A stretch of 41,064 nucleotides of DNA from assembly GCA_002710725.1 (NCBI GenBank), contig PAKT01000065.1, positions 1-41,064 on the forward strand, in the 5' to 3' direction. Position numbers and translations under genes: made by a program. The DNA is from Spongiibacteraceae bacterium. Lineage in GTDB: Bacteria; Pseudomonadota; Gammaproteobacteria; Pseudomonadales; Spongiibacteraceae. Shown here piece by piece: positions 26,376-40,821 of the stretch (the stretch's first letter is position 1; every line of letters begins with the position of its first letter). The notes under the pieces are model-generated. The model did no database searches and was not told where the DNA came from. It saw only the letters and a list, made by a program, of their open reading frames with translations.

Positions 26376-27182
26376 TCAGCTTGCTTTCAGCTTTTCTCTC
26401 AATGCCAAAAGCTCATTCTGCAGCTGCCGGCTGACCTGTGTCTGACGGCGGCCGCTCAGCAGATTTTCGGCAATCTCGAGATGGTGTCGTGTGCTCGTCG
26501 GGTTACCATTCAGCAATTCCAGATGTGCAACCTGGCTGTGCCAGAAGGGTGAGCTTTGCATTAACGGGCTGAAAGTTTTCAGACGCGCTATCGCAGCCTG
26601 ATAGTTTTTTCGTCGCTGTTCGATAGCGATGGCAATATTTTGCAATTGCGGAATCGCCCCCAGCGTTTCCATGCGCCGATCGAGCAGAGCCAGTGCAGCG
26701 CGAGGGCCTTCAATGTCCTCGGTCAGTAGTGCGGCCTCGCGTAAGAAACCGCTTTCGATCTCTGGTTGCAGGCTGAACAGTTTTTGATAGTCAGCCAGCG
26801 CTTTTTTCTTTTCGCCCTGTGCAAGCAAAACCTCGGCTCGCAACAGGTAGGCGCGGAGGTTGTTTGGCTGCAGCCGAATCGCCCTGTCGAGTTCTGCGCG
26901 TGCCGCCGCCAGTTTTCCCTGACGGCTGAGAAAATCCCCTCGTACCAGTGCAGCCGTCGTGTGGTCACCGAGTCTGTCGATTTGATCCAGATCTGAGTAT
27001 GCCGCATCCAACATGCCGATTTCGGCCAGGGTATGGGCGCGCCGCAGATAGGGTGTCGTGCTGTCTGGATCGCGGGTGATTTGCTCTGCGAGGTAGCCCA
27101 GCAGGTTTTCCTTTGAGGGGCCTGCCTGCGCCAGACTTATACCAAGCAGTGTCAGCAGCAGTGTGCAGCGGAGAATGTGCAT
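26376..27182 (-). CDS. Exported TPR-repeat protein
   Basis: A 268-residue protein with signal peptide MHILRCTLLLTLLGISLAQA. The remainder is a solenoid of tetratricopeptide repeats: PYLRRAHTLAEIGMLDAAYSDLDQ, ALVRGDFLSRQGKLAAARAELDRA, and AYLLRAEVLLAQGEKKKALADYQK, then less regular repeats up to the Lys-rich C-terminus. Such proteins form periplasmic scaffolds. The gene follows the phosphatase-like lipoprotein by 11 bases on the same strand, so the two are probably one operon and may act as a pair. No catalytic motif is present. The stop lies next to that of convergent rdgC. Confidence 0.85.
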   Translation of the reverse strand: MHILRCTLLLTLLGISLAQAGPSKENLLGYLAEQITRDPDSTTPYLRRAHTLAEIGMLDAAYSDLDQIDRLGDHTTAALVRGDFLSRQGKLAAARAELDRAIRLQPNNLRAYLLRAEVLLAQGEKKKALADYQKLFSLQPEIESGFLREAALLTEDIEGPRAALALLDRRMETLGAIPQLQNIAIAIEQRRKNYQAAIARLKTFSPLMQSSPFWHSQVAHLELLNGNPTSTRHHLEIAENLLSGRRQTQVSRQLQNELLALREKLKAS

Positions 27183-27193
27183 TTTCCCTCTCC

Positions 27194-28690
27194 TTAACGC
27201 CGAATGATGAAATGGTCGAGTACGTCGCCGTGCTCATCGATAAAGCGGGCTGTCAGCGTTGAGGCATCCATGTCGACGACTACCGAGCCGATGTCACTGC
27301 CTGTGGAGTAGAAATTGGCCGGGTGAGGCCCGGCAGCATTCATCCCGGTCGCCTGGCCGGAGTTGCCGGCAACCGTATAAACGACCTTGTCGTCCCCGGT
27401 GGCGGTCGTTTGCCAGTAGGTTTCATCGTCTTGCCCGTTGGCGGGCTCGCCGTCGTTGGCCAGTTCAGTGTGTATTTGGGGGTCAAAGGAACTTGAAAGC
27501 CCAGTGTGGTTTTTAAGGTAGTAGGAGCGTTCATAGGAATGGCTGTGGCCGCTGTAGACAAGATCTACGCCGTATTGCTCGAAGAGCGGGTTGAACTGCT
27601 CGCGCATATCAAAGATGGGCTGATCGACACCACCCAGCGCATCGTCTGAATCGTGACTGCCCTTGGTATAGGGCGGGTGGTGAAAGATTACGATAGTCCA
27701 GTCACTGGTGTTGCTCTGCAGGTCGGCCAGCAGCCAGTCTTTCATCGCCTGCAGGTTGGCGCTGTTCCGGACACTTACCTGTGAGTCGAGGCTGATCACA
27801 TGGAGATTGCCGTAATCGAAGGAATAGTACTGTTCCGTGCCGCTGGGAACACCGCCGGCTTCGCCATTGGTGGGCAGGCTGTGGATGTTCAGGTAGGGCA
27901 TGGGTGAATCGGGCAAGAGGTCGGGGAGCCCTGTCGCCGGAATGTAAAGCGCCACCGAATCTGCTTGCGACAGGCCGGAACTGCCCATTTCATGATTGCC
28001 GATGGTGGGCCACAGGCTTGCGGTGGCAAGTGTGTCGGTGTACATCTCGAAGACAGCTGTCTGGTGCTGGGCATCGGTACCATCGAGGTAGGCATTGTCA
28101 CCCAACATCAGAAACACATCGGTCGGTTCTCCACCATTCGCTTCAAGCCATTTGCGATAGCCATCCCGACCGCGTGCCTGGCCGTCGGTGTTGTCGCCGC
28201 TATCCAGCACAGGCGAACTGGAGGTGCCGGGGTCGCCGACAATCCAGACTCGGATATTGCCGTCAGAAGGCAGGGCGCCTTTGACCGGTGCCGTGCGGAA
28301 ATGATGTTTGGGGTCGGCTGTTGGGGCGCCGCCAACTGAGTAGTAGTAGGTCGTGTCAGGTGAAAGCCCGGTCAGGACAGCTTCGCTGTGCCGTGTCTGA
28401 GTAACGGTCGCGGCAGTCTCGCTGCTGGCAGGAAGAGCATTGGGATTGGTGCCGAAGCAAATCGTAGAGGCCTCGGTCAGTGGGTTGGTGCTGCGCCATT
28501 TGATAATTACCCGGTCGTGACTGAGCTGCTGTAGAAAAAGCCGTTCGGGGCTGGCGGCTTCGCCATCGCACAATTCAACCGGGGTTTGCACTACAGGCGG
28601 GGAACCGCTGGATGAGGAGCTGTCGTTGCAGGCGCTGATCAGTGCGGTGGTTACAGCGAGTGTTCCAAAAAGCGTGAGCGAATATTTCAT
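27194..28690 (-). CDS. Purple-acid-phosphatase-like metallophosphoesterase lipoprotein
   Basis: A 498-residue exported lipoprotein (MKYSLTLFGTLAVTTALISAC, lipobox ISAC). After a Ser-rich linker there is a fibronectin-III-like domain (residues about 45-125, with TTYYYSVGG) and then the metallophosphoesterase domain. Metal motifs are in order: VGDPGTSS (GDxG), LGDNAYLDG (GDNxY), TIGNHEMG (GNHE), FHHPPYTKG and SGHSHSYERSYY (GHxHxYER). These are the purple acid phosphatase signatures. The start at 28690 places the signal peptide at the N-terminus; an upstream in-frame ATG at 28714 does not. It likely releases phosphate from organic esters in the periplasm or on the outer-membrane surface. Confidence 0.92.
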   Translation of the reverse strand: MKYSLTLFGTLAVTTALISACNDSSSSSGSPPVVQTPVELCDGEAASPERLFLQQLSHDRVIIKWRSTNPLTEASTICFGTNPNALPASSETAATVTQTRHSEAVLTGLSPDTTYYYSVGGAPTADPKHHFRTAPVKGALPSDGNIRVWIVGDPGTSSSPVLDSGDNTDGQARGRDGYRKWLEANGGEPTDVFLMLGDNAYLDGTDAQHQTAVFEMYTDTLATASLWPTIGNHEMGSSGLSQADSVALYIPATGLPDLLPDSPMPYLNIHSLPTNGEAGGVPSGTEQYYSFDYGNLHVISLDSQVSVRNSANLQAMKDWLLADLQSNTSDWTIVIFHHPPYTKGSHDSDDALGGVDQPIFDMREQFNPLFEQYGVDLVYSGHSHSYERSYYLKNHTGLSSSFDPQIHTELANDGEPANGQDDETYWQTTATGDDKVVYTVAGNSGQATGMNAAGPHPANFYSTGSDIGSVVVDMDASTLTARFIDEHGDVLDHFIIRR

Positions 28691-28751
28691 GTCTTGTTGG
28701 TTCCTGAGGGGCACCTTGTGGTGTTTTTATTGCTTTTAGTGTATGGGTTAC

Positions 28752-29599: not shown

Positions 29600-30502
29600 T
29601 TACCGAGTGAGGACCTTCAGCGCGGCGGCAGCTGCTGCGGTGCGGTTTTCGACGCCGAGCTTGGGAAACACAGTTTCCAGATGCTTGTTTACGGTGCGTG
29701 GGCTCATTGCCAGTATTTCTCCAATTTCCTTATTGGTTTTGCCCTGCGCGATCCAGTAGAGCACTTCCGATTCCCGCTGAGTGAGTGGCAGCACCCGACG
29801 CAGGGTGTCTGCGTCTGGTTTGCTGGCGGGATCGCTCAGTCTGAACAGGCATTCAATGTCACTGCTATCGCTCAACAGAAATACGTCGAGTGGCTTCGGT
29901 AGATTTTCCAGAGAGTAGCGCTGCCCTCGCTGGGGGCCATGTGACAGCCAGCGCACCAGTGGGGTAAAGATCAATTTTTCCTGTTCAGCTGCTGAAAGCC
30001 CGCTTAGCTTCAGCAGCGCCTGTGCTTCGCGCGTGGCCCATTGCAAGGTGCCGTTCTTGTCGAGAGTGATAAGGTACTGACCGGTGCGATCCAGCGCCTG
30101 CTGTACACTCATGGTGCGTTTTGCGTTACCCAAATGAACACGCACGCGGGCAAGCAATTCATCAGGGCTGACGGGTTTGGTCAGGTAATCGACACCACCA
30201 GCCTCCAGGCCTTCCACAACGTGTTCGGTATCCGTCAGACCGGTCATGAAGATCACCGGGATTTCCGCTAGGGCTGGGTTGGCTTTGAGCCGTCGACAGG
30301 TCTCAAAGCCATCCATGTTAGGCATGATTGCATCGAGCAAAATAATGTCAGGGATTACCTTGCTCGCGATGGTGAGTGCCTGCTGGCCGTCCAGCGCGAG
30401 CAGAACGCTGAGCCCAGCGCCCTCCAAGGCGTCGTTAAGTAGGCTAAGGGTGTCGGGAGAGTCGTCGACCACCAGGGCCACTTCATTCACGGAAAGATTC
30501 AT
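29600..30502 (-). CDS. LuxR-type response regulator with receiver, PAS-like middle and HTH
   Basis: A 300-residue protein. The receiver domain occupies residues 1-125 with acidic pocket D13-D14, phosphoacceptor D57 (LLDAIMPNMDG) and Lys in YLTKPVSPDE. The middle region (about 130-225) resembles a PAS fold (GQYLITLDKNGTLQWAT). The C-terminal 65 residues are a LuxR helix-turn-helix: LTQRESEVLYWIAQGKTNKE, IGEILAMSPRTVNKHLETVF. It starts inside the last codon of the transporter-kinase gene (4-base overlap), so it must be its cognate regulator. The likely target is the urea/urease cluster upstream or other nitrogen genes; no binding site is visible. Confidence 0.92.
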   Translation of the reverse strand: MNLSVNEVALVVDDSPDTLSLLNDALEGAGLSVLLALDGQQALTIASKVIPDIILLDAIMPNMDGFETCRRLKANPALAEIPVIFMTGLTDTEHVVEGLEAGGVDYLTKPVSPDELLARVRVHLGNAKRTMSVQQALDRTGQYLITLDKNGTLQWATREAQALLKLSGLSAAEQEKLIFTPLVRWLSHGPQRGQRYSLENLPKPLDVFLLSDSSDIECLFRLSDPASKPDADTLRRVLPLTQRESEVLYWIAQGKTNKEIGEILAMSPRTVNKHLETVFPKLGVENRTAAAAAALKVLTR

Positions 30503-33500
30503 CGACTGTGTTCTTCCAAAACGGCAATCACCTGCGAGAATTGAAACTTGCCTGCCAATTCCCGAAGTACTGTGGCAAGGGTGCCAGGCACCTGACCAAC
30601 TCGCTCCATTTCATCTAGCGCTTCCGCCAGACCTCGGGAGTAACCAATTTCCGCCAAGTGTATCAAGCGACCTGCGATAGTAGAGTCTATTTCAGTGTCG
30701 ACTAGTGACTGTGGCTCCGGTTTGGATGTGCTCTGGGGGTTTGGAGTGTTTTGCAACTGCCACTCAATTCTCAGGAGTTCGCCGAGTCTTTCCAGCAGTG
30801 TCTGCAAGCGTACTGGTTTAAGCATATAGGTGTTGTAGTTTGATTCTGGTGTTGGTTGGGTTGGGGCTTCTTCGGCGTTGGCGGAAACCATCAGTACGGG
30901 TTGCTGTAGCTCTAATTCGCGCAGCCTTGCTGCCAGTTCGTGACCACTCATGCCCGGCATGGAAACATCCAATATAAACAGGTCGGGGTTTTCATGAGCA
31001 AGCTGCGACAGGCAACTGTCCGCGTCGCGCGCCTCGCAAATATCGAAGCCCAGTGGTACCAGCATATCGACCATCAAACCGCGGTGCACCGGATCGTCGT
31101 CTACTACCATCAGTTTTTTGCGTGGGCCGGCGTAGCCAGTGATCAAAGGGGGCTCTTCCGATTCGGCGAGATTGACGACCGACGAGAGCATGAGGGTCAA
31201 GGTAAAACAGCTACCTACCCCTTCGCGGCTTTCCACATGAATATCACCGCCCATAATTTCTGTGAGTAGCCGCACGATGGTTAAGCCCAGACCGGTTCCA
31301 GCAATCAGGGGGGCGCCGGGTTTGCGCACGCGCTCGAAAGGTTTGAAGATATTCTGTAAATCAGCTGCGGAAATACCGGGGCCGGTGTCGACCACGCGAA
31401 ATTCAGCGACTTGGGAACGGTAGCGCACGTGAAAGTCTACCTGCCCGCGCTCGGTAAATTTAACTGCGTTGGAAAGCAGGTTGGTAAGTACCTGCCGCAA
31501 TCGTTTTTCGTCAGCGCGCACCAGTTTTGGCAGGGAGGTTTCGGAAACGTAGCGAAAACCTACACCTTTTGCCTGAGCTTCCGGCGCGAAAATCTGTTGC
31601 ATCTGGTTGAGTAACTCATGAAAGTTGACCAGATCCCGTCGCAATTCAATACGCCCGGCTTCTATGCGCGATATATCAAGCAGACCTTCTATAAGGTCTG
31701 CGAGGTGTTCGCCGCTGCGGTGAATAACGCTCAGAGCCTTGCGGGGTTTTTCCGGCAGTTCAGGGTCGCGTTGCAGTAGCTGGGCGTAACCCAGTATGGC
31801 TTGCAAAGGGGTTCGCAATTCGTGACTGATGCCGCCGAGGTAGCGGCTCTTGGCATAGTTTGCGGCTTCGGCCACTTCTTTGGCGCGCTGCAGCTCCTGA
31901 TCGGTGCGGCTGTGGGCTTCAATTTCCTGCACCAATCGTTGAGTCTGTCGATCCGATTCCTGTTGCGCCACGCGCCGGCTTTCATTGGCCAGAAGGAAAA
32001 GCCAGATCAAAACGCCAGTGACAATCGTGATAATGAAATAGAGGCTGGTCAGGGTTTCCGCAATAACACTGTCATTGGCACCGCCTGTGGCCATTTCGTA
32101 GTAAATGACCCAGAGGACACCGGCGTTGACCAGGTTGATCACTATAAACAGGCTGACAAACCGGCCTATTCGTGAAAACAGGGATGTAATGACAGCCTGT
32201 GGCAGCAGCCCGCTAAGGAATGTCTGCAACTGCTGGGAGAACCGCGCATCCTGTTTACACGAATCCATACAGCGCGCGTCGAGTGAACAGCATAGTGAGC
32301 AAATGGTCCCTTCATAAGCACTGCAATGAGCCACGTCTTCCCGTTCAAAATCCGATTCGCAAATAATGCAGCGGTGTATTTCTGTAGTGGGCAGTTGGTC
32401 GCGTGAGTCTCGGGCGAGGTAATAACGCCCACCGGTCCACCAGGCCAGCAGCGGTGTTGCAATCAGGCAAGCGCCAAGCGTAATGAAGTGCGCCAAAGCC
32501 TTGGCAGTGACGCCAAACAGGCCGAGGTAGGCCAGCACGCCCAACAGCGAAGCGATGGTCATCGAACCCACCCCGACCGGGTTTATATCGTAGAGGTGGG
32601 CCCGCTTGAACTCGATGTGTTTAGGGCTCAGCCCCAAGCGCTTGTTCACAGCCAGATCGACTGCGAGCGTGCCGAGCCAGGCGCAGGCAACTACCGCGAA
32701 AACGCCGAGTACGTTCTCCAGTACCCGGTAGATGCCCAGTTCCATCAGCAGGAGGGCAATGACAACATTAAAAACCACCCAGACAACGCGGCCCGGGTGG
32801 CTATGGGTTAGTCGTGAGAAAAAATTCGACCAGGCGATTGAGCCAGCGTAGGCGTTGGTGACATTAATCTTCATTTGCGAGATGACCACCATCAGGCCAG
32901 CCAGTACCAGCGCCAGTTGCGGCATGTTGCTGAAATACTGATAAACCCGCTGGTACATTTGTGTTGGGTCAGCGGCCAGCTCGGCTGAGGCTCCTTCGCT
33001 GAAAGCCAGGTAGGCGAGGAAGGAGCCCAGAAACAGTTTGATGATGCCGATAAATACCCAGCCGGGCCCAGCAAACAATACCGCCAGATCCCATTTTTTT
33101 GAGTTTTCGGTGGTGCGGTGTGGCAGAAAGCGGAGGTAGTCTACCTGCTCCCCTAACTGGGCGATCATGGCGATCAGGACTGAAGCGGCGGCACCGAACA
33201 CCAACAGGTTGAATTCGTTGGTCTGGGCCTTGCGCCCGCCGTAGTCGAGCCAGCCCGGCACCTCGGCGTAGTCATGAGTAGCTACCAGAATCAGTGCCGA
33301 TACTTGCAGGATCAGCCAGAGATACTGGGTTCCGATCTGAAAGCGGCTGATCAGTGTAATGCCGTGCGTCACGATCGGAATGACAGCCACTGCACAGACC
33401 ACGTAGCCCGCGGCCAGAGGCAAGCCGAATATCAGCTGCAATGCCATCGCCAGTATGGCGGCTTCTATCGCAAAGAAAATAAAGGTGAAGGAAGCGTACA

Positions 33501-33861
33501 CAAGCGAGGTGATCGTCGAACCGAGATAACCGAAGCCAGCGCCGCGGGTGAGAAGATCAATATCGACGCCGTAGCGTGCGGCGTAACGGCAGATGGGCAT
33601 ACCCACCAGAAAGGTTACTGCCATTACCACGACAATGGCGGCGGCCGAGTTGACAAAGCCGTATTCCAGGGTAACGGCAGCCCCCAGTGCCTCCAGCGCC
33701 AGAAAGGCAGTGGTTCCCAAGGCTGTCATGGCGACTCGAGAAATGCTCCAGCGGCGCGCTTTCTTTGCGGTAAAACGCAGCGCGTAATCTTCCAGTGTCT
33801 GGTTGGAGACCCACTGGTTGTATTGGCGCCGGATGCGGAATATTTGCTGACTGGCAGACAT
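30499..33861 (-). CDS. NCS1-transporter / Cys-rich / hybrid histidine kinase fusion
   Basis: A 1120-residue membrane protein. Residues about 40-485 form a 12-segment transporter of the purine-cytosine permease (NCS1) type, with FGAAASVLIAMIAQLGEQVDY and ISQMKINVTNAYAGSIAWSNF in family positions. Residues about 497-533 hold eight cysteines (CIIC ... HC ... CSLCC ... C ... C), probably a zinc-binding module. Two more membrane segments follow (about 555-625), then a coiled coil, HisKA with H680 in SHELRTPLQAI, and an HATPase domain (NLLSNAVKF, DTGPGIS, GTGLGLTIV). A receiver domain has phosphoacceptor D965 (LDVSMPG), and a helical C-terminus follows. It probably senses a nitrogenous solute through the transporter domain and signals to the coupled LuxR regulator. 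Confidence 0.92.
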   Translation of the reverse strand: MSASQQIFRIRRQYNQWVSNQTLEDYALRFTAKKARRWSISRVAMTALGTTAFLALEALGAAVTLEYGFVNSAAAIVVVMAVTFLVGMPICRYAARYGVDIDLLTRGAGFGYLGSTITSLVYASFTFIFFAIEAAILAMALQLIFGLPLAAGYVVCAVAVIPIVTHGITLISRFQIGTQYLWLILQVSALILVATHDYAEVPGWLDYGGRKAQTNEFNLLVFGAAASVLIAMIAQLGEQVDYLRFLPHRTTENSKKWDLAVLFAGPGWVFIGIIKLFLGSFLAYLAFSEGASAELAADPTQMYQRVYQYFSNMPQLALVLAGLMVVISQMKINVTNAYAGSIAWSNFFSRLTHSHPGRVVWVVFNVVIALLLMELGIYRVLENVLGVFAVVACAWLGTLAVDLAVNKRLGLSPKHIEFKRAHLYDINPVGVGSMTIASLLGVLAYLGLFGVTAKALAHFITLGACLIATPLLAWWTGGRYYLARDSRDQLPTTEIHRCIICESDFEREDVAHCSAYEGTICSLCCSLDARCMDSCKQDARFSQQLQTFLSGLLPQAVITSLFSRIGRFVSLFIVINLVNAGVLWVIYYEMATGGANDSVIAETLTSLYFIITIVTGVLIWLFLLANESRRVAQQESDRQTQRLVQEIEAHSRTDQELQRAKEVAEAANYAKSRYLGGISHELRTPLQAILGYAQLLQRDPELPEKPRKALSVIHRSGEHLADLIEGLLDISRIEAGRIELRRDLVNFHELLNQMQQIFAPEAQAKGVGFRYVSETSLPKLVRADEKRLRQVLTNLLSNAVKFTERGQVDFHVRYRSQVAEFRVVDTGPGISAADLQNIFKPFERVRKPGAPLIAGTGLGLTIVRLLTEIMGGDIHVESREGVGSCFTLTLMLSSVVNLAESEEPPLITGYAGPRKKLMVVDDDPVHRGLMVDMLVPLGFDICEARDADSCLSQLAHENPDLFILDVSMPGMSGHELAARLRELELQQPVLMVSANAEEAPTQPTPESNYNTYMLKPVRLQTLLERLGELLRIEWQLQNTPNPQSTSKPEPQSLVDTEIDSTIAGRLIHLAEIGYSRGLAEALDEMERVGQVPGTLATVLRELAGKFQFSQVIAVLEEHSR

Positions 33862-34029
33862 GGGCTGATCGGTCCGGTTTATGTTGCGCAGCCCGTGGGG
33901 TAAGGCTATCAGCGCACAGTTTAACCGTTAGGTCTCCTAATCGATATAGGTCAAATAACGTGCACTACGATGCGCCACCAGAGTGGGCGGCAGGCACTAA
34001 ATTGCTCCTTGCGCCTGCCAATTAGTACG

Positions 34030-34239
34030 CTAGCGTTTACCGTGTTGTGCGGACCTTCCGGCTTTAGCCCGGTGACGATTTGCACTAAGCAGAAATAGAG
34101 CCGTCCCGACCCCTGCGGCTGCGAGTGCAAATAACGCATGCTCATAGTCGTGGCCAAAGCTGGCCCAGCTGCCGTGTCCGCTATGAGCAAGGGCGTTGCC
34201 GGTGGTGAGGAGCAGAACGCAGGTCATTAATGTTTTCAT
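34030..34239 (-). CDS. Small membrane protein of the urease cluster, HupE/UreJ-like N-terminus
   Basis: A 69-residue protein downstream of ureG by 15 bases, with a strong ribosome site AAGGAG eight bases before its ATG. It has a signal peptide (MKTLMTCVLLLTTGNALA), then HSGHGSWASFGHDYEHALF and one membrane segment (ALAAAGVGTALFLLSA), ending in a basic tail. The HSGHG start and the His spaced after it recall the HupE/UreJ metal carriers that occur in urease and hydrogenase clusters, but those have six membrane segments. A role in nickel handling is likely from context, not shown. The 168 bases beyond it contain only short inverted repeats (TTAGG-TCT-CCTAA at 33928-33940). Confidence 0.75.
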   Translation of the reverse strand: MKTLMTCVLLLTTGNALAHSGHGSWASFGHDYEHALFALAAAGVGTALFLLSANRHRAKAGRSAQHGKR

Positions 34240-34254
34240 GATTTTCTCCTTGTT

Positions 34255-34887
34255 TCACGCACTTTCACTGGCAGCGGCTGGCTTGAGCATGCCTTCGGTT
34301 TCAATAAAACGGATAATATCATCGAGCCCTTCGGACTTTTTCAGGTTGCTGAATACAAAGGGGCGTTCGCCACGCATTTTTTTCGCATCGCGATCCATCA
34401 CCTCAAGTGACGCGCCAACTAACGGGGCGAGATCTGTTTTATTTATGATAAGCAGGTCTGACCGGGTAATACCGGGGCCGCCCTTGCGTGGAATCTTGTC
34501 GCCGGCGGAAACGTCGATGACGTAGATAGTTAAATCTGACAATTCCGGGCTGAAGGTGGCGCTAAGGTTATCGCCACCGCTTTCTACCAAGACAAAATCT
34601 AGCCCAGGATGCCTTTGGCAGAGCTCGTCAACGGCGGCAAGGTTCATGGAAGCATCCTCGCGAATGGCGGTATGAGGGCAGCCGCCGGTTTCGACGCCGA
34701 TAATCCGGTCTGGCGACAGGGCTTCGTTGCGGGTCAGAAACTCCGCGTCCTCCCGGGTATAGATATCATTGGTTACTACGGCAAGATTGTATTTGTCGCG
34801 CAGTTCCAGGCACAGAGCGCGCAGCAGCGCGGTTTTGCCAGAACCGACCGGGCCGCCGACGCCAATACGCAGAGTGGTTGCTTGCAT
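34255..34887 (-). CDS. ureG: Urease accessory GTPase UreG
   Basis: A 210-residue SIMIBI GTPase that delivers nickel to urease with UreE, UreF and UreD. It shows [14 protein letters not shown] (P-loop, residues 11-19), [14 protein letters not shown], the family-invariant Cys-Pro-His nickel site in [24 protein letters not shown], and NKTDLAP. The start at 34887 follows AGGAGA and matches the family's N-terminus; the frame runs open to 35055 without family similarity. It lies 25 bases after ureF. Confidence 0.98.
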
Positions 34888-34912
34888 GTGTCTCTCCTTT
34901 TTAAGAGCGTGT

Positions 34913-35584
34913 TCAGGATCGAAATAATCGGCAGTACTGGGTTTCATGCAGGGCACTGGCCATCGCCAGACCGGGCAGGGTATTGCCAATGTCGTCATCC
35001 TGCAGGGTGGCGGCACGATCAAGCACCGCCGGTATTTGTTGTTGCAACAAGCCAAGTAATTGCTGGGCTTGGGTCTGGCCGAGTGGCACCAGTTTGGTGG
35101 CTGCGGCTATTTGCGCTTCGAGCCAGCACCAGACCAGACCGATAACACACGCCTTTTCACTGATCTGCCATTGCCAGGCGGTGCTGACAAATACTGCGAG
35201 AAATGAAGGCTCCAGCTTGTTGCACGTTTCTGATAAGGCCTGTGGCAGATTGCTCAGCAGTCGCAATAAGGCATCGCCCATGGCGACATCCGCCAGCAGT
35301 AGCTCGCGGCTTTCCCGGGCCGCGAGGGCGTAGCGATTCCAGTAATGAAACGCTGTGCTGTCCTGCTCATCCAGTGCGCAGTACAGTCTGCTGGCAATTG
35401 GAATGTCGAGACTGCCAAGGCCTTCGCTCAACCCCAGTGCCAGCCATTCTTCTGTCGTTTTAAAATCAATGACCCAGCCGCATTCCACGGCATACTCGAG
35501 CCCTTGGGAAAAGCTGTAACCTCCGACGGGCAGGGCAGCGCTGCTTAATTGCAACAGTCGCAATAAGGCGGCGTCAGTGAGCAT
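34913..35584 (-). CDS. ureF: Urease accessory protein UreF
   Basis: A protein of about 223 residues, all-helical, that links UreG to the urease-UreD complex and gates its GTPase activity. [21 protein letters not shown] and [16 protein letters not shown] are the family's opening blocks; [16 protein letters not shown] and [20 protein letters not shown] follow. Two in-frame ATGs at 35593 and 35584 overlap the 3' end of ureE; I chose 35584 because it gives the family N-terminus, but 35593 is almost as good. The overlap with ureE indicates coupling. Confidence 0.95.
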
Positions 35585-36023
35585 GGGAACCATGACGCTT
35601 GCCGTAGGCGCCGGGATCGGGTTCAAACACGGCATCTTCACGCACCACCTTCAGCCCTAGACTGGATAGCAAGTCTTCGAGTACGTGGTCTGGCGTAATG
35701 CGCAGCCACCGTTCACCCAACTGCAGGCGCACGTGGCGATTCCCCAAGTGGTAGCAGGCGCGAGAGAAGGTGGCCCAGTCGTCAGTGCGGGCGGTGACTA
35801 CGGGTTCAGGAGCACCGCTTACCAGTAACTGCTTGCCACAAGCGGACAGCAGAATGTCGCCGGGAAGGAGAGGCTTGCCACGCTCAAGAATTACTCTCGC
35901 CTCCACGCCAGCTTTGGTTTGAATACGAAAGCGGCTTTTCTCACGTAGCAGGTGATCCAGTGGAATCTCGTCGGCAATGTCGACATGGTGGATATGGTCA
36001 AGGCGTTGATAGATCTCAAACAT
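35574..36023 (-). CDS. ureE: Urease accessory nickel chaperone UreE
   Basis: A 149-residue metallochaperone. The N-terminal domain leads into GVEARVILERGKPLLPGDIL, and the metal-binding domain has ACYHLGNRHVRLQL with the dimer-interface nickel His region, PDHVLEDLLSSLGLKV and EPDPGAYG. The C-terminal tail is short (KRHGSHAH, three histidines), unlike the long His tail of Klebsiella UreE, so it should bind fewer nickel ions. It lies 13 bases after ureC. Confidence 0.97.
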   Translation of the reverse strand: MFEIYQRLDHIHHVDIADEIPLDHLLREKSRFRIQTKAGVEARVILERGKPLLPGDILLSACGKQLLVSGAPEPVVTARTDDWATFSRACYHLGNRHVRLQLGERWLRITPDHVLEDLLSSLGLKVVREDAVFEPDPGAYGKRHGSHAH

Positions 36024-36036
36024 GAGCGTGCTTCTC

Positions 36037-37740
36037 TTATATCAGGTTGTAGAGTTGCGCCAGCGGGAGCACCTCGGCCGGTTCACAGGTCAGCAATTCT
36101 CCATTGGCACGTACTTCATACGTCTGTGGATCGACGGTGACTTTAGGCATCCATGCGTTGTGAATCATGTCGCTTTTGCTGATGTTGCGGGTGTCGCGGC
36201 AAGCTACGAGGCGGCGTTCCAGTCCAAAGCGTTCGGCTACCTTGTTGTCCAATGCGGCCTGACTGACCACCGTAAACGAGGTGTTGCGCGCAGCTTTACC
36301 GAAGCTGCCGAACATCGGTCGATAGTGCACCGGCTGTGGAGTGGGGATAGAGGCATTGGGGTCGCCCATAGGTGCGGCTGCAATAAAACCGCCTTTGATA
36401 ATCATGGCCGGTTTTACCCCGAAAAACGCGGGTTTCCACAACACCAAGTCAGCGAGTTTGCCGACTTCTATGCTGCCGACCTCATGGGAAATGCCATGGG
36501 TAATGGCCGGATTGATAGCGTATTTGGCGATGTAGCGTTTGGCGCGGAAATTGTCACGACGATCGTTATCTTCAGGCAGGGCACCACGCTGTACCCGCAT
36601 TTTGTGGGCAGTCTGCCAAGTGCGGGTTATAACTTCACCGACCCTGCCCATTGCCTGCGAGTCAGACGCGATCATGCTGAAGGCACCGAGGTCGTGAAAA
36701 ATATCTTCGGCGGCGATGGTTTCCTTTCGTATACGCGAATCGGCAAAGGCGACATCTTCGGGAATCGAGGGGTCGAGATGGTGGCACACCATAAGCATAT
36801 CGAGATGTTCATCGACTGTATTGCGGGTGTAGGGCCGAGTCGGATTGGTTGACGATGGCAGTACATTGGCTTCAGCGCAGGCGCGAATAATATCTGGTGC
36901 GTGACCGCCCCCTGCGCCTTCGGTGTGGTAAGTATGAATCACCCTGCCCTTGAAGGCGGCCAGCGTATCATCGACAAAGCCGGACTCATTCAGCGTGTCG
37001 GTGTGGATCGCCACTTGGATGTCGTATTTTTCTGCGACGCTCAGGCAGGTATCTATTGAGGCCGGTGTCGTGCCCCAGTCTTCGTGTAACTTCAGTCCGC
37101 AGGCGCCGGCAATGACCTGCTCTTCCAAAGCTTCCGGCAGGCTGCCGTTGCCCTTGCCGAGAAAGCCAAGATTCATCGGCATATCTTCGGTGGCCTGCAG
37201 CATTTTCCCCATATTCCATGGGCCGGGGGTGCAGGTGGTGGCGTTGGTGCCGGTCGCAGGGCCGGTGCCGCCACCAATCATGGTAGTGACGCCGGACATC
37301 AGCGCTTCCTCAATCTGTTGTGGACATATAAAGTGGATATGGGCGTCGATGGCGCCGGGAGTCAGAATCTGGCCTTCACCGGCGATGACTTCGGTGCCCG
37401 GCCCAATGATGATATCGACACCGTCCTGAATGTCGGGATTGCCGGCCTTGCCTATAGCACTGATACGCCCTTCCTTGATAGCAACGTCCGCTTTAACAAT
37501 GCCCCAGTAGTCCAGAATCAGAGCATTGGTAATTACGGTGTCAGCGGCGACTTCCGACGTGGCCTGACTCTGCCCCATGCCGTCTCGAATAACTTTGCCG
37601 CCACCGAACTTCACCTCGTCGCCGTAGGTCGTGTAATCCTTCTCCACTTCAATCCACAGGGCGGTATCGGCCAGTCGGACCCGGTCGCCAGTGGTCGGCC
37701 CAAACATTTCGGCATAAGCGCGCCGATCAATTTTGGTCAT
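36037..37740 (-). CDS. ureC: Urease alpha subunit (catalytic)
   Basis: A 567-residue dinuclear-nickel enzyme that hydrolyses urea to ammonia and carbamate. All active-site residues stand at the same numbers as in the Klebsiella enzyme: H134 and H136 (DAHIHFICP), the carbamylated K217 and H219 (GLKLHEDWG), H246 (AIHTDTL), H272 (THYH region, IHTYHTEG), the flap C319 and catalytic H320 (MVCHHLDP), and D360 ([10 protein letters not shown]). Residue length is typical. Its start overlaps the ureB stop by 4 bases. It appears fully functional. Confidence 0.99.
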
Positions 37741-38063
37741 GCTGTGTTACTCCCGTCATCCAGCGCACCCATGACATCGCCGCGAAATCCGAATACACGG
37801 CGCTTGCCCGCAAGCGCTACCAGTTCCACTTCGCGGTCTTGGCCGGGCTCGAAGCGCACAGCAGTACCTGCGGCGATATTCAGGCGATAGCCGCGCGCGG
37901 CCTCGCGATCAAAATGCAGAGCGGGGTTAACCTCGTAGAAATGGTAGTGAGAGCCCACCTGCACCGGGCGATCACCGCTGTTTTCAACTCGCACGCGCAG
38001 GGTCTGACGTCCGCTGTTCAATTCGATATCGCCGGCAAGCGTATCCAGTTCTCCGGGAATCAT
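37737..38063 (-). CDS. ureB: Urease beta subunit
   Basis: A 108-residue structural subunit of the (alpha-beta-gamma)3 urease. It shows [65 protein letters not shown] and [18 protein letters not shown]. It lies 11 bases after ureA and overlaps ureC by 4. Confidence 0.98.
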
Positions 38064-38074
38064 GGGCGCCCTCC

Positions 38075-38377
38075 TTAATTAATTGGCTCGTGAATGGTGA
38101 CCAGTTTGGTGCCGTCCGGGAACGTGGCCTCAACTTGTACTTCAGGTACCAGCGCGGGAACGCCATCCATGACCTGGCTGGCACTAAGCAGGGCTTTACC
38201 TTTACCCATTAGCTCGGCGACTGTCAGCCCTTCTCGGGCCAGTTCCACCACCATCAAACTGAGATAGGCTACGGCCTCTGGATAATTCAGTTTGAGACCC
38301 CGCTGCAGTCGGCGCTCCGCTAGCATGCCGGCGGTTACCATCAGTAGTTTGTCTTTTTCTCTAGGTAACAGATCCAT
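38075..38377 (-). CDS. ureA: Urease gamma subunit
   Basis: A 100-residue structural subunit, standard length, starting [20 protein letters not shown]. It carries [18 protein letters not shown] and [20 protein letters not shown] before VTIHEPIN. It is the first structural gene of the urease, preceded by ureD by 23 bases. Confidence 0.98.
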
Positions 38378-38400
38378 ACAATCTCCAATTAACAGCCGGG

Positions 38401-39252
38401 CTAGGTCGCCCAGATTCGGGGCGCGCAGGCTGTTCGGTTCAGTAGACGCGGGCGGCAGTGCCGCCAGCAGATCTCAAAGGCCTTACGCGCATCAAAAGCA
38501 CTGTTGCCCAAATAGCGAACCACTAGCCATTGCTCAATACGGGTGCAGGTCAGTGGTAATTCGCGGTCCCGTAGGGTATCAGTCAGCTCATCGATCGAGG
38601 TGCTGTCACTGAATGGCCCTACAATCAACAAGCCCAACACCGTGCGACCATTTAAGCCGGCCGCCTGGCTTTGCACAGGGCTGGGAGCGTTTAGAGCAAA
38701 GCGATCAATCAGGCTCAAACGACCATCCTGAAAAACGCGGGTGCGCTGACAAAATTGTCCCCGCTCAAAGGCTTGCTGACTGGCAGGCAGGCCGAGGCAA
38801 ATTACATCCCAAGCGATCAGGGAGCTGTTTGCGCTTAAATGGAAGTCGGTCTCGCTGTGCAAGTTGGCACCGGGATAGACAATGGTTTCCATGGGCAGCC
38901 ATTCGAGCGACGCGTTCTGTTCGACTGTGAACCGCTGTCGTTGGCGCTGTTGGGTTTGTGTTTCACGTGCGCGGTAGGCTCTACCGGCGCCGGGTGTGGT
39001 GATCAGTACCTGGCTGCCTTCGTTGCAATGAGCGCTAATGGCGAGCAGATCACCGGACACCAAGCCACCCGGCGGATGCAGCAAATAGCAATGGGCGAGT
39101 TCAGGGCCTTCGGGGTAGAACGGACGTTGTACGGACAGCGGGCCTTTTCGATCAGCCTTGATAAGGCGGCAACCGGAAGGTCGCTGCGTAAATTGAAGTT
39201 CCAGCGACGCGTGCCACTGGCTGACCTGAAGTGTCGGCAGTGCGCTACCCAT
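38401..39252 (-). CDS. ureD: Urease accessory protein UreD (UreH)
   Basis: A 283-residue scaffold that binds apo-urease and forms the tunnel for nickel from UreG/UreF. It shows [22 protein letters not shown] near the start, [40 protein letters not shown] and [15 protein letters not shown], all family blocks. It lies one base after the urtE stop, linking the urea transporter operon to the urease genes in a single transcription unit. It appears complete. Confidence 0.96.
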
Positions 39253-39253
39253 G

Positions 39254-39949
39254 CTATACCGCCAGGTGCTGTTGAATCAGATCATCACGTAGCTCAGGCA
39301 TGGTGCCCTGTGCGACGACTCGACCGCGTTCTATCAGGCGGAAATGATCGCCAACCTTGCGAGCAAAGGCCAGCTTCTGTTCAACTAGGATGATGGTCAT
39401 ATTGTCCTCGTTTTTCAGGCGCATCAGCACGTCACCGATCTGCTGAACGATGTTCGGCTGAATTCCCTCGTTAGGTTCGTCCAGGATCAGTACCTTGGGA
39501 TCAGTGGCCAGAGCGCGGCCGATCGCTAACTGTTGCTGTTGACCGCCGGACAGGTCACCACCGCGACGTTTCCTCATTTCCTCCAGCACTGGAAACAATT
39601 CGAATATTTTGTCCGGAATCTTTTGCGATCTGTCGGCGCGCGCCCCCAGGCCGATGCGCAAATTTTCTTCTACTGTTAGTTGCGGAAAGATATCGCGGCC
39701 TTGCGGTACATAACCTATGCCAAGATGAGCGCGCTTGTAGGCGGCCAGTTTGAGCAGGTCACGACTTTCAAAGGTGCATTCACCGACTGTGGCTGGCAGT
39801 AGCCCCATAATAACTTTCAGTAGTGTCGTCTTGCCGACGCCATTGCGGCCCATTACACAGGTGCACTCGCCTGGAGCAAAATCGAGATTCACCTTCCACA
39901 GGATCTGCGTGCCTCCATAGGCCTGATCGAGTTGCTTGATCGAAATCAT
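39254..39949 (-). CDS. urtE: Urea ABC transporter ATP-binding subunit UrtE
   Basis: A 231-residue ABC ATPase of the branched-chain-amino-acid/urea type (LivF-like). Walker A GRNGVGKTTLLKVIMG, signature LSGGQQQQLAIGRAL, Walker B VLILDEPNEGIQPNIVQQIG and an H-loop replaced by VEQKLAFA. The NEGIQPN stretch is characteristic of UrtE. Start overlaps the urtD stop by 4 bases. With UrtD it powers uptake through the membrane subunits UrtB and UrtC. Confidence 0.97.
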   Translation of the reverse strand: MISIKQLDQAYGGTQILWKVNLDFAPGECTCVMGRNGVGKTTLLKVIMGLLPATVGECTFESRDLLKLAAYKRAHLGIGYVPQGRDIFPQLTVEENLRIGLGARADRSQKIPDKIFELFPVLEEMRKRRGGDLSGGQQQQLAIGRALATDPKVLILDEPNEGIQPNIVQQIGDVLMRLKNEDNMTIILVEQKLAFARKVGDHFRLIERGRVVAQGTMPELRDDLIQQHLAV

Positions 39950-40821
39950 CCATTTCCTCCAGAGCCGGCAGCAGATCCAAAGGCACCCGCGTCTTCGCCC
40001 AGATACACCTCAATCACATCTTCATTGTTCTGGATCTCATCCATGGTGCCTTCGGCTAATAGACTGCCCTGATGAAGGACAGATACCGTCCGTGCAATCT
40101 TGCGTACAAACTCCATGTCGTGCTCTACAACAATAACCGTGTGCTTGCCGGCGAGGCTGGTTAGGAGCTCCGCAGTGCGGTCTGCCTCACTGGCTGTCAT
40201 TCCCGCCACAGGCTCGTCAATTAGCAGCAAACGCGGCTCCGCTACCAGTAGCATGCCAATTTCCAGCCACTGCTTCTGTCCATGAGACAGCGATGCGGCA
40301 TCACGGTGACGCAGGTTGCTGAGATTTATCGTTTTGAGCACTTCGTAAATTCGGTCCTGCTGACTTGACGTTAGCGTGGCGCGAAGGCTGTGCCAGATAT
40401 CTTTGTGGGTTTTTAGCGCTAGCTCCAGGTTTTCGTGTACCGTCAGCGCTTCAAACACACTGGGTTTCTGGAATTTTCGGCCAATGCCCAGCTGCGCAAT
40501 TTCAGCTTCGTCTTGCTCCAGTAGGTTAATGGTTTGGCCAAAATAAGCTGTGCCATAGTCGCAGGGGGTTTTGCCGGTGATGACGTCCATCAGTGTGGTT
40601 TTTCCGGCACCGTTGGCGCCGATCAGACAGCGTAATTCGCCGTCATCGACGTAGAGATTCAGGTTGTTCAGGGCTTTAAAACCGTCAAAGCTGACCGTGA
40701 GATCCTCAACGTAGAGAATGACCCGGTGCGAGACGTCGGGGTTAAAGGTCGGATTCTGAATCAATTGTGGCCATAACCGATCGCGCTGGCGGAATTCCTC
40801 AAGAAGTGCAGGCGCCTTCAT
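39946..40821 (-). CDS. urtD: Urea ABC transporter ATP-binding subunit UrtD
   Basis: A 291-residue ABC ATPase (LivG-like) with an N-terminal extension of about 35 residues before the ATPase fold (VEDLTVSFDGFKALNNL). Walker A GANGAGKTTLMDVITG, signature LSHGQKQWLEIGML, Walker B RLLLIDEPVAGMTASE, and H-loop VEHDMEFV. The SHGQKQWLEIG signature is typical of UrtD. The C-terminal tail is Gly/Ala-rich (GAFGSAAGSGGNG). The start overlaps the end of urtC by 23 bases. Confidence 0.97.
   Translation of the reverse strand: MKAPALLEEFRQRDRLWPQLIQNPTFNPDVSHRVILYVEDLTVSFDGFKALNNLNLYVDDGELRCLIGANGAGKTTLMDVITGKTPCDYGTAYFGQTINLLEQDEAEIAQLGIGRKFQKPSVFEALTVHENLELALKTHKDIWHSLRATLTSSQQDRIYEVLKTINLSNLRHRDAASLSHGQKQWLEIGMLLVAEPRLLLIDEPVAGMTASEADRTAELLTSLAGKHTVIVVEHDMEFVRKIARTVSVLHQGSLLAEGTMDEIQNNEDVIEVYLGEDAGAFGSAAGSGGNG

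Follow-up and report, generated by a model that had tools for sequence, protein, structure and literature searches.

A candidate urea/short-amide transceptor: an NCS1-like permease fused to a hybrid histidine kinase beside urease and urt genes

Results

The window, by which we mean the whole 41,064-nucleotide stretch of Spongiibacteraceae DNA analysed here, encodes on its minus strand a hybrid sensor kinase of 1120 aa, in an open reading frame that starts with an ATG at 33861 and ends at 30499 (33861-30499). From the N to the C terminus, the protein comprises an NCS1-like permease/sensor domain (aa 1-495, core about aa 15-485; 32376..33861, minus), an eight-Cys module (aa 498-535; 32257..32370, minus), two extra TM helices that lead into the dimerisation helix (aa about 563-632; 31966..32175, minus), HisKA, HATPase_c and receiver domains (aa 670-1026; 30784..31854, minus) and a tail of ~95 aa. 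The HisKA (670-736), HATPase_c (784-892) and receiver (918-1026) domains each pass their Pfam cut-offs. The phosphoacceptor H680 and the receiver residues D921, D922, D965 and K1015 are present and are invariant in the family, and the N and G boxes are intact, so that the protein carries every feature that defines a hybrid kinase of the HisKA class (H box, N/G boxes, receiver Asp/Lys). Hydropathy outlines a polytopic, 12-TM permease-like region at about 41-480 and further segments at 563-593 and 594-632, the extra helices being called from single-sequence and family-averaged profiles. No PAS or GAF domain is present in the kinase. A single-sequence AlphaFold2 model of the N-terminal 654 residues reached a pLDDT of 45 and was discarded. 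A preliminary description of this DNA, made from its letters, had proposed the reading frame and its permease-Cys-TM-kinase-receiver order; the coordinates proved exact, with the gene on the minus strand, and Pfam, hydropathy and individual residues agree on the order.

The end of the kinase gene is overlapped by the ATG of a gene for a 300-aa LuxR-type response regulator (receiver-LuxR; 29600..30502, minus). On the other side lie ureG, ureF, ureE, ureC, ureB, ureA, ureD, urtE and urtD (34255..40821, minus), the presumed targets of the pair, and the contig stops short of urtC. A small membrane protein of 69 aa, encoded between the kinase and ureG (34030..34239, minus), resembles DUF6732 just below the Pfam cut-off and has a His-rich N-terminus; since related loci carry a HupE/UreJ-like gene at the same place, it may be a nickel-related mini-protein. 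Just past the regulator lie genes for a purple-acid-phosphatase-like metallophosphoesterase and, after it, a TPR protein (26376-28714), apparently unrelated to the urea genes.

The window's own permease domain is too diverged for Pfam, where a search with this region alone returned zero matches, and its assignment therefore rests on its relatives; PDB sequence searches likewise returned no relative. A stand-alone homologue that is 44% identical (L106) scores 31.8 bits against PF02133, over a cut-off of 23.5, and covers nearly the whole profile, and tblastn recovers proteins annotated as 'cytosine permease' that are about 24-29% identical to the domain. By hhalign, the domain matches an NCS1 set that was partly gathered by similarity with E 3e-49, and a small, poorly assembled PF02133-only set, in which some ORFs were wrongly picked, with E 4e-4 and a probability of 34%; an SSS set was unmatched. 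Judged from these alignments, the permease domain is NCS1-like and not SSS, that is, not of the SLC5-STAC type, in line with what had been proposed for it. An invariant Lys331 in TM8 was considered as the mark of a lost sodium site and dropped, since stand-alone relatives have Arg or Lys at that position.

The eight Cys of the module (C498, C501, C513, C521, C524, C525, C531 and C535) follow the spacing C498-x2-C-x11-C-x7-C-x2-C-C-x5-C-x3-C535 and are all invariant across the first 21 homologues. In a 68-row set, losses are confined to two stand-alone permeases that lack a kinase, and every kinase-fused member examined retains all eight. The segment weakly resembles the Cys-rich protein CRIPT (E 2.3). 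The linker as a whole, eight-Cys module and two TMs, gave no significant match in Pfam, against which it was compared instead of being aligned directly with the STAC profile. The same segment also ends permeases that stand alone, with the number of Cys ranging from eight through four to none or one: the eight-Cys form belongs to sensors and to the permeases encoded alongside them, a CxxC...CxxC form in the permeases of urease operons, and a degenerate form in actinobacteria. By this comparison, the module is the C-terminal tail of the permease, stand-alone ones included. The tail, with its conserved CxxC pattern, is probably cytosolic and may well bind zinc in a zinc-ribbon-like manner. The preliminary description had seen the module as well placed for a redox or metal relay between transporter and kinase, a reading that is not supported: its presence on stand-alone permeases (eight-Cys, four-Cys and degenerate) means that no dedicated relay to the kinase is required, and such a role is only a guess.

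Strong matches to the sensor were found in about 20 of 96 genomes of the same order, nearly all of them full-length, of similar size and of the same architecture, and these homologues are 45-57% identical over their length; the closest relative (G733) is 77-83% identical. Class and phylum samples extended the full-length homologues across Pseudomonadota, with a match in 45 of 292 good genomes of the phylum sample, a few distant NCS1 permeases included. Named plasmids yielded 533 records (Klebsiella 342, Sinorhizobium 78, also Azospirillum, Paracoccus and others). Database records label the sensor merely 'ATP-binding protein' or hybrid sensor kinase. A single-protein search of genome contigs matched only an unrelated kinase, and a search of viral contigs returned no relative of the sensor. 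The same input module occurs on plain kinases (L100, L171, L172), on a PAS-PAS-kinase-receiver (L102), on a kinase-receiver-HPt (L104) and on PAS-GGDEF-EAL proteins (L101, L103), and this recurrence on different outputs is the behaviour expected of a sensory module. The PAS-GGDEF-EAL fusions (L101 6849-10520; L103 6758-10309), which combine an NCS1-like permease, the eight-Cys module and TMs, are possible solute-gated c-di-GMP enzymes; genes of the urea/amide type are absent from their neighbourhoods.

Linkage was assessed on 73 full-length loci, a set limited to records other than hand-picked plasmids, with neighbours counted within about 10 kb. An orthologue of the LuxR-type regulator adjoins the kinase in 67 of the 73, urtA/B/C genes are present in 50, amidase/formamidase genes in 37 and urease genes in 13; altogether, at least 58 of the 73 carry urt, urease or formamidase/amidase genes. 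Of the other loci, several run into contig ends, and two (L050 and L054) do have urtD/E. The neighbouring UrtA, B, C, D and E, FmdA and aliphatic amidase score over curated cut-offs. In the order sample, UrtA passes its cut-off in 18/20 sensor-bearing genomes versus 21/75 sensor-less ones (Fisher p = 6e-7), and one sensor-bearing genome (G045) is without any urt gene. The genome of the closest relative holds a full porin-urtABCDE-ure cluster, next to which the sensor pair still lies, though in the opposite orientation to ure-urt. The family thus shows the gene linkage of urea/short-amide regulatory systems, and the link to nitrogen genes that had been proposed for the window, which such a survey of other genomes could have overturned, stands. 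Inspection of annotated named loci revealed no gene for allantoinase, cytosine deaminase or uricase beside the sensors or their close stand-alone relatives. Of the solutes put forward in the preliminary description, urea is therefore supported by its urt and urease partners, whereas cytosine and allantoin are disfavoured, the partners being genes for urea and for formamide/acetamide and not for purines or pyrimidines.

The choice of partner enzyme follows the sensor. In the permease-domain tree, linkage to urease or amidase changes 5 times, against a mean of 15 (minimum 10) when labels were shuffled. The window's sensor falls in a 19-row clade (support 85) drawn from several families, in which 10 members are urease-linked and 0 amidase-linked; in the taxonomic family to which the window belongs, amidase-linked sensors prevail among the other relatives. 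That the tree tracks the partner enzymes points to urea for the window's protein, whose effector is likely urea by this placement, and to the urea/short-amide class for the family. Residues of the permease core are nearly the same in urease- and amidase-linked sensors, the columns that differ look peripheral, and a search for specificity-switch residues between the two groups brought none to light. The ligand could thus be something common to both settings and not urea itself.

Between the divergent sensor and urtA genes lies a predicted operator, ATACGTCA-NN-TGACGTAT, a palindrome that is previously unreported. Its dyad TACG-N8-CGTA occurs in 22 of 38 sensor-urtA intergenic regions (0.3 expected), and five more have it with one mismatch. 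The palindrome is also found upstream of urtA in urease-type clusters whose kinase is distant (G066, G026, G031), between the sensor and a stand-alone permease (L095, L290 and L292, and with one mismatch L291) and upstream of an amidase in Methylovirgula. In sensor-less genomes, it is present in 1 of 20 urtA upstream regions (Fisher p = 6e-5). The window has a degenerate copy, ATAGGTCAAATAACGTGC (33946..33963, no strand assigned), 85 nt upstream of the kinase start, with a score of 10.2, the second best in the window, and p = 0.005 when the upstream region was shuffled.

Kinase-less genes for the permease with its Cys tail come after ureG in Klebsiella and in genomes of one gammaproteobacterial genus, before ureE on an Acinetobacter plasmid, and next to fmdA or amiE in Moraxella, Tsukamurella and Arthrobacter. 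At five loci (L095, L290-L292 and the rearranged L283), a permease beside the HK-RR pair and fmdA/amiE occupies the usual place of urtABCDE. Their position in urease or formamidase/amidase operons identifies the likely cargo; two stand-alone permeases, from Streptomyces (L281) and Arthrobacter (L284), have no neighbours of the urease, formamidase or amidase type. In the urease operon on the K. pneumoniae chromosome, ureG is immediately followed by a gene for a 'cytosine permease' (L278 7971-9578), which has a CxxC...CxxC tail and, as a stand-alone relative of the sensor's permease domain, is a candidate urea permease. A distant NCS1 'cytosine permease' by hydantoinase genes on plasmid IV of Paracoccus aminovorans (L085 7923-9551) has a CxxC...CxxC-like tail, suggesting that the tail may predate the urea/amide branch.

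Discussion

We know of no receptor that tells bacteria of external urea or simple amides. The domain order of the sensor, its conservation, its genetic linkage, the urease/amidase split of its tree and the palindrome can be read directly from the sequences compared here, and we consider it quite probable that the protein is a transceptor for urea and short amides, which would induce the genes for their uptake and hydrolysis via the adjacent LuxR-type regulator. According to this model, urea or a related small carboxamide, for example formamide or acetamide, would be bound by the NCS1-family domain, which may transport it as well. Whether by occupancy or by alternation, the permease would signal through the Cys tail and the linker of two TMs and signalling helix to the DHp/CA kinase, which would phosphorylate the regulator, with the fused receiver possibly tuning the flow. 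The regulator would then bind the ATACGTCA-NN-TGACGTAT palindrome at urt and permease promoters, and uptake and hydrolysis genes would be induced. The ligand, the metal, the direction of regulation and the binding of DNA by the regulator are what we infer in this scheme.

One alternative is that the Cys module is the true input, responding to redox state, zinc or the nickel supply for urease, and that the permease is a scaffold. The eight Cys that are invariant in every kinase-fused member, the requirement of urease for nickel and the faint likeness to CRIPT would fit such a role, but stand-alone permeases share the tail with a varying number of Cys, formamidase/amidase-linked sensors without a nearby urease retain the module, and the permease core is conserved at least as much as the tail; we therefore regard this reading as unlikely. 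It is very unlikely, in our judgement, that the permease domain is only an importer fused by chance and that the kinase answers to another cue, for instance the nitrogen status inside the cell. Permeases of this kind do occur on their own and have the appearance of functional transporters, yet loci that need a transporter also carry UrtABCDE or a separate permease, the kinase lacks a PAS or GAF domain, and the input module is found on varied outputs, GGDEF-EAL included. Finally, we find it highly improbable that the protein detects a ureide or nucleobase (allantoin, hydantoin, cytosine, uracil) and that urease completes a ureide pathway. The NCS1 homology, the annotation of some stand-alone relatives as 'allantoin permease' or 'cytosine permease' and the distant Paracoccus relative by hydantoinase genes would favour this reading, but the constant partners across the named, annotated loci that were inspected are urtABCDE, urease, FmdA and AmiE, the permease annotations are transfers by homology, and NCS1 proteins can accept acyclic ligands, MetT transporting metformin (PMC13390362).

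The proposed urea/short-amide transceptor has parallels among known systems. CbrA of Pseudomonas, an SLC5-STAC histidine kinase and histidine transceptor (PMC13022988, PMC7096432), likewise joins a transporter domain through a cytosolic linker to a histidine kinase and has been proposed to pass transporter motion to it. The CbrA-like organisation noted in the preliminary description is thus borne out, transporter domain and histidine kinase sharing one chain, though with NCS1 in place of SSS: CbrA has an SLC5/SSS domain, a four-helix STAC linker and a PAS domain, whereas the window's sensor has an NCS1 domain, the Cys module with two TMs, a fused receiver and a LuxR-type regulator. It has neither the SLC5/SSS transporter domain that characterises SLC5-STAC proteins (SSS profile unmatched) nor, as judged by Pfam only, their STAC linker. 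CrbS/CrbR (MxtR/ErdR), the acetate switch (PMC5715377, PMC5436829), and RpuS/RpuR (PMC9100948) offer a second comparison. In CrbS too, a transporter domain is part of a hybrid kinase, and the partner of this kinase is a LuxR-type regulator that activates substrate-use genes via an inverted repeat; however, CrbS and RpuS have an SLC5-STAC input, an acetate or pyruvate signal, a different repeat (ACTU motif) and no Cys module. The Amt-histidine kinase of anammox bacteria (PMC5764959) is also a fusion of a nitrogen-compound transporter to a histidine kinase, but it has the Amt/Rh fold, ammonium as its ligand and no Cys module. The NCS1 permeases Mhp1, CodB (PMC9379551), PucI and MetT (PMC13390362), which stand alone and carry nucleobases, hydantoins, allantoin or metformin, share the fold family of the sensor's N-terminal domain, and the papers searched report no kinase fusion for them. 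AmiC/AmiR controls amidase and amide uptake genes in response to small amides (PMC13209695) by means of a periplasmic-type binding protein and an RNA-binding antiterminator, proteins unrelated to the sensor-regulator pair. No report of an NCS1-based sensor kinase or of its LuxR-type regulator was found in the papers searched, which were those available without subscription.

We also lean, if only slightly, towards a broader view in which the NCS1 permease, Cys tail and two TMs would form a new portable module, placed on hybrid kinases, kinase-HPt and GGDEF-EAL proteins, that is a dedicated urea/short-amide receptor with its own operator, the same lineage supplying importers in urease/formamidase operons, including the chromosomal urease operon of K. 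pneumoniae. With this family, transceptor kinases would come to include NCS1 proteins, and the ways in which different transporter folds act on a kinase could be compared. It also offers a candidate receptor for external urea or amides, together with a partner regulator and a predicted operator, and its stand-alone permeases and urease-/amidase-linked paralogues could serve as controls. The sensor is widespread, and on Klebsiella plasmids it adjoins a urea/amide uptake operon that is discussed as a urinary-fitness trait. Papers on this operon describe UrtABC/AmiF, and searching them turned up no mention of the kinase. At the locus on the K. pneumoniae plasmid pKPN3-307_typeB (L082, 5909-15381), UrtA is 74-83% identical to amidase/formamidase-linked UrtA and 39-46% identical to urease-linked UrtA, and the plasmid's 'high-affinity urea transport system', with its AmiF neighbour, may serve the uptake of amide and not of urea.
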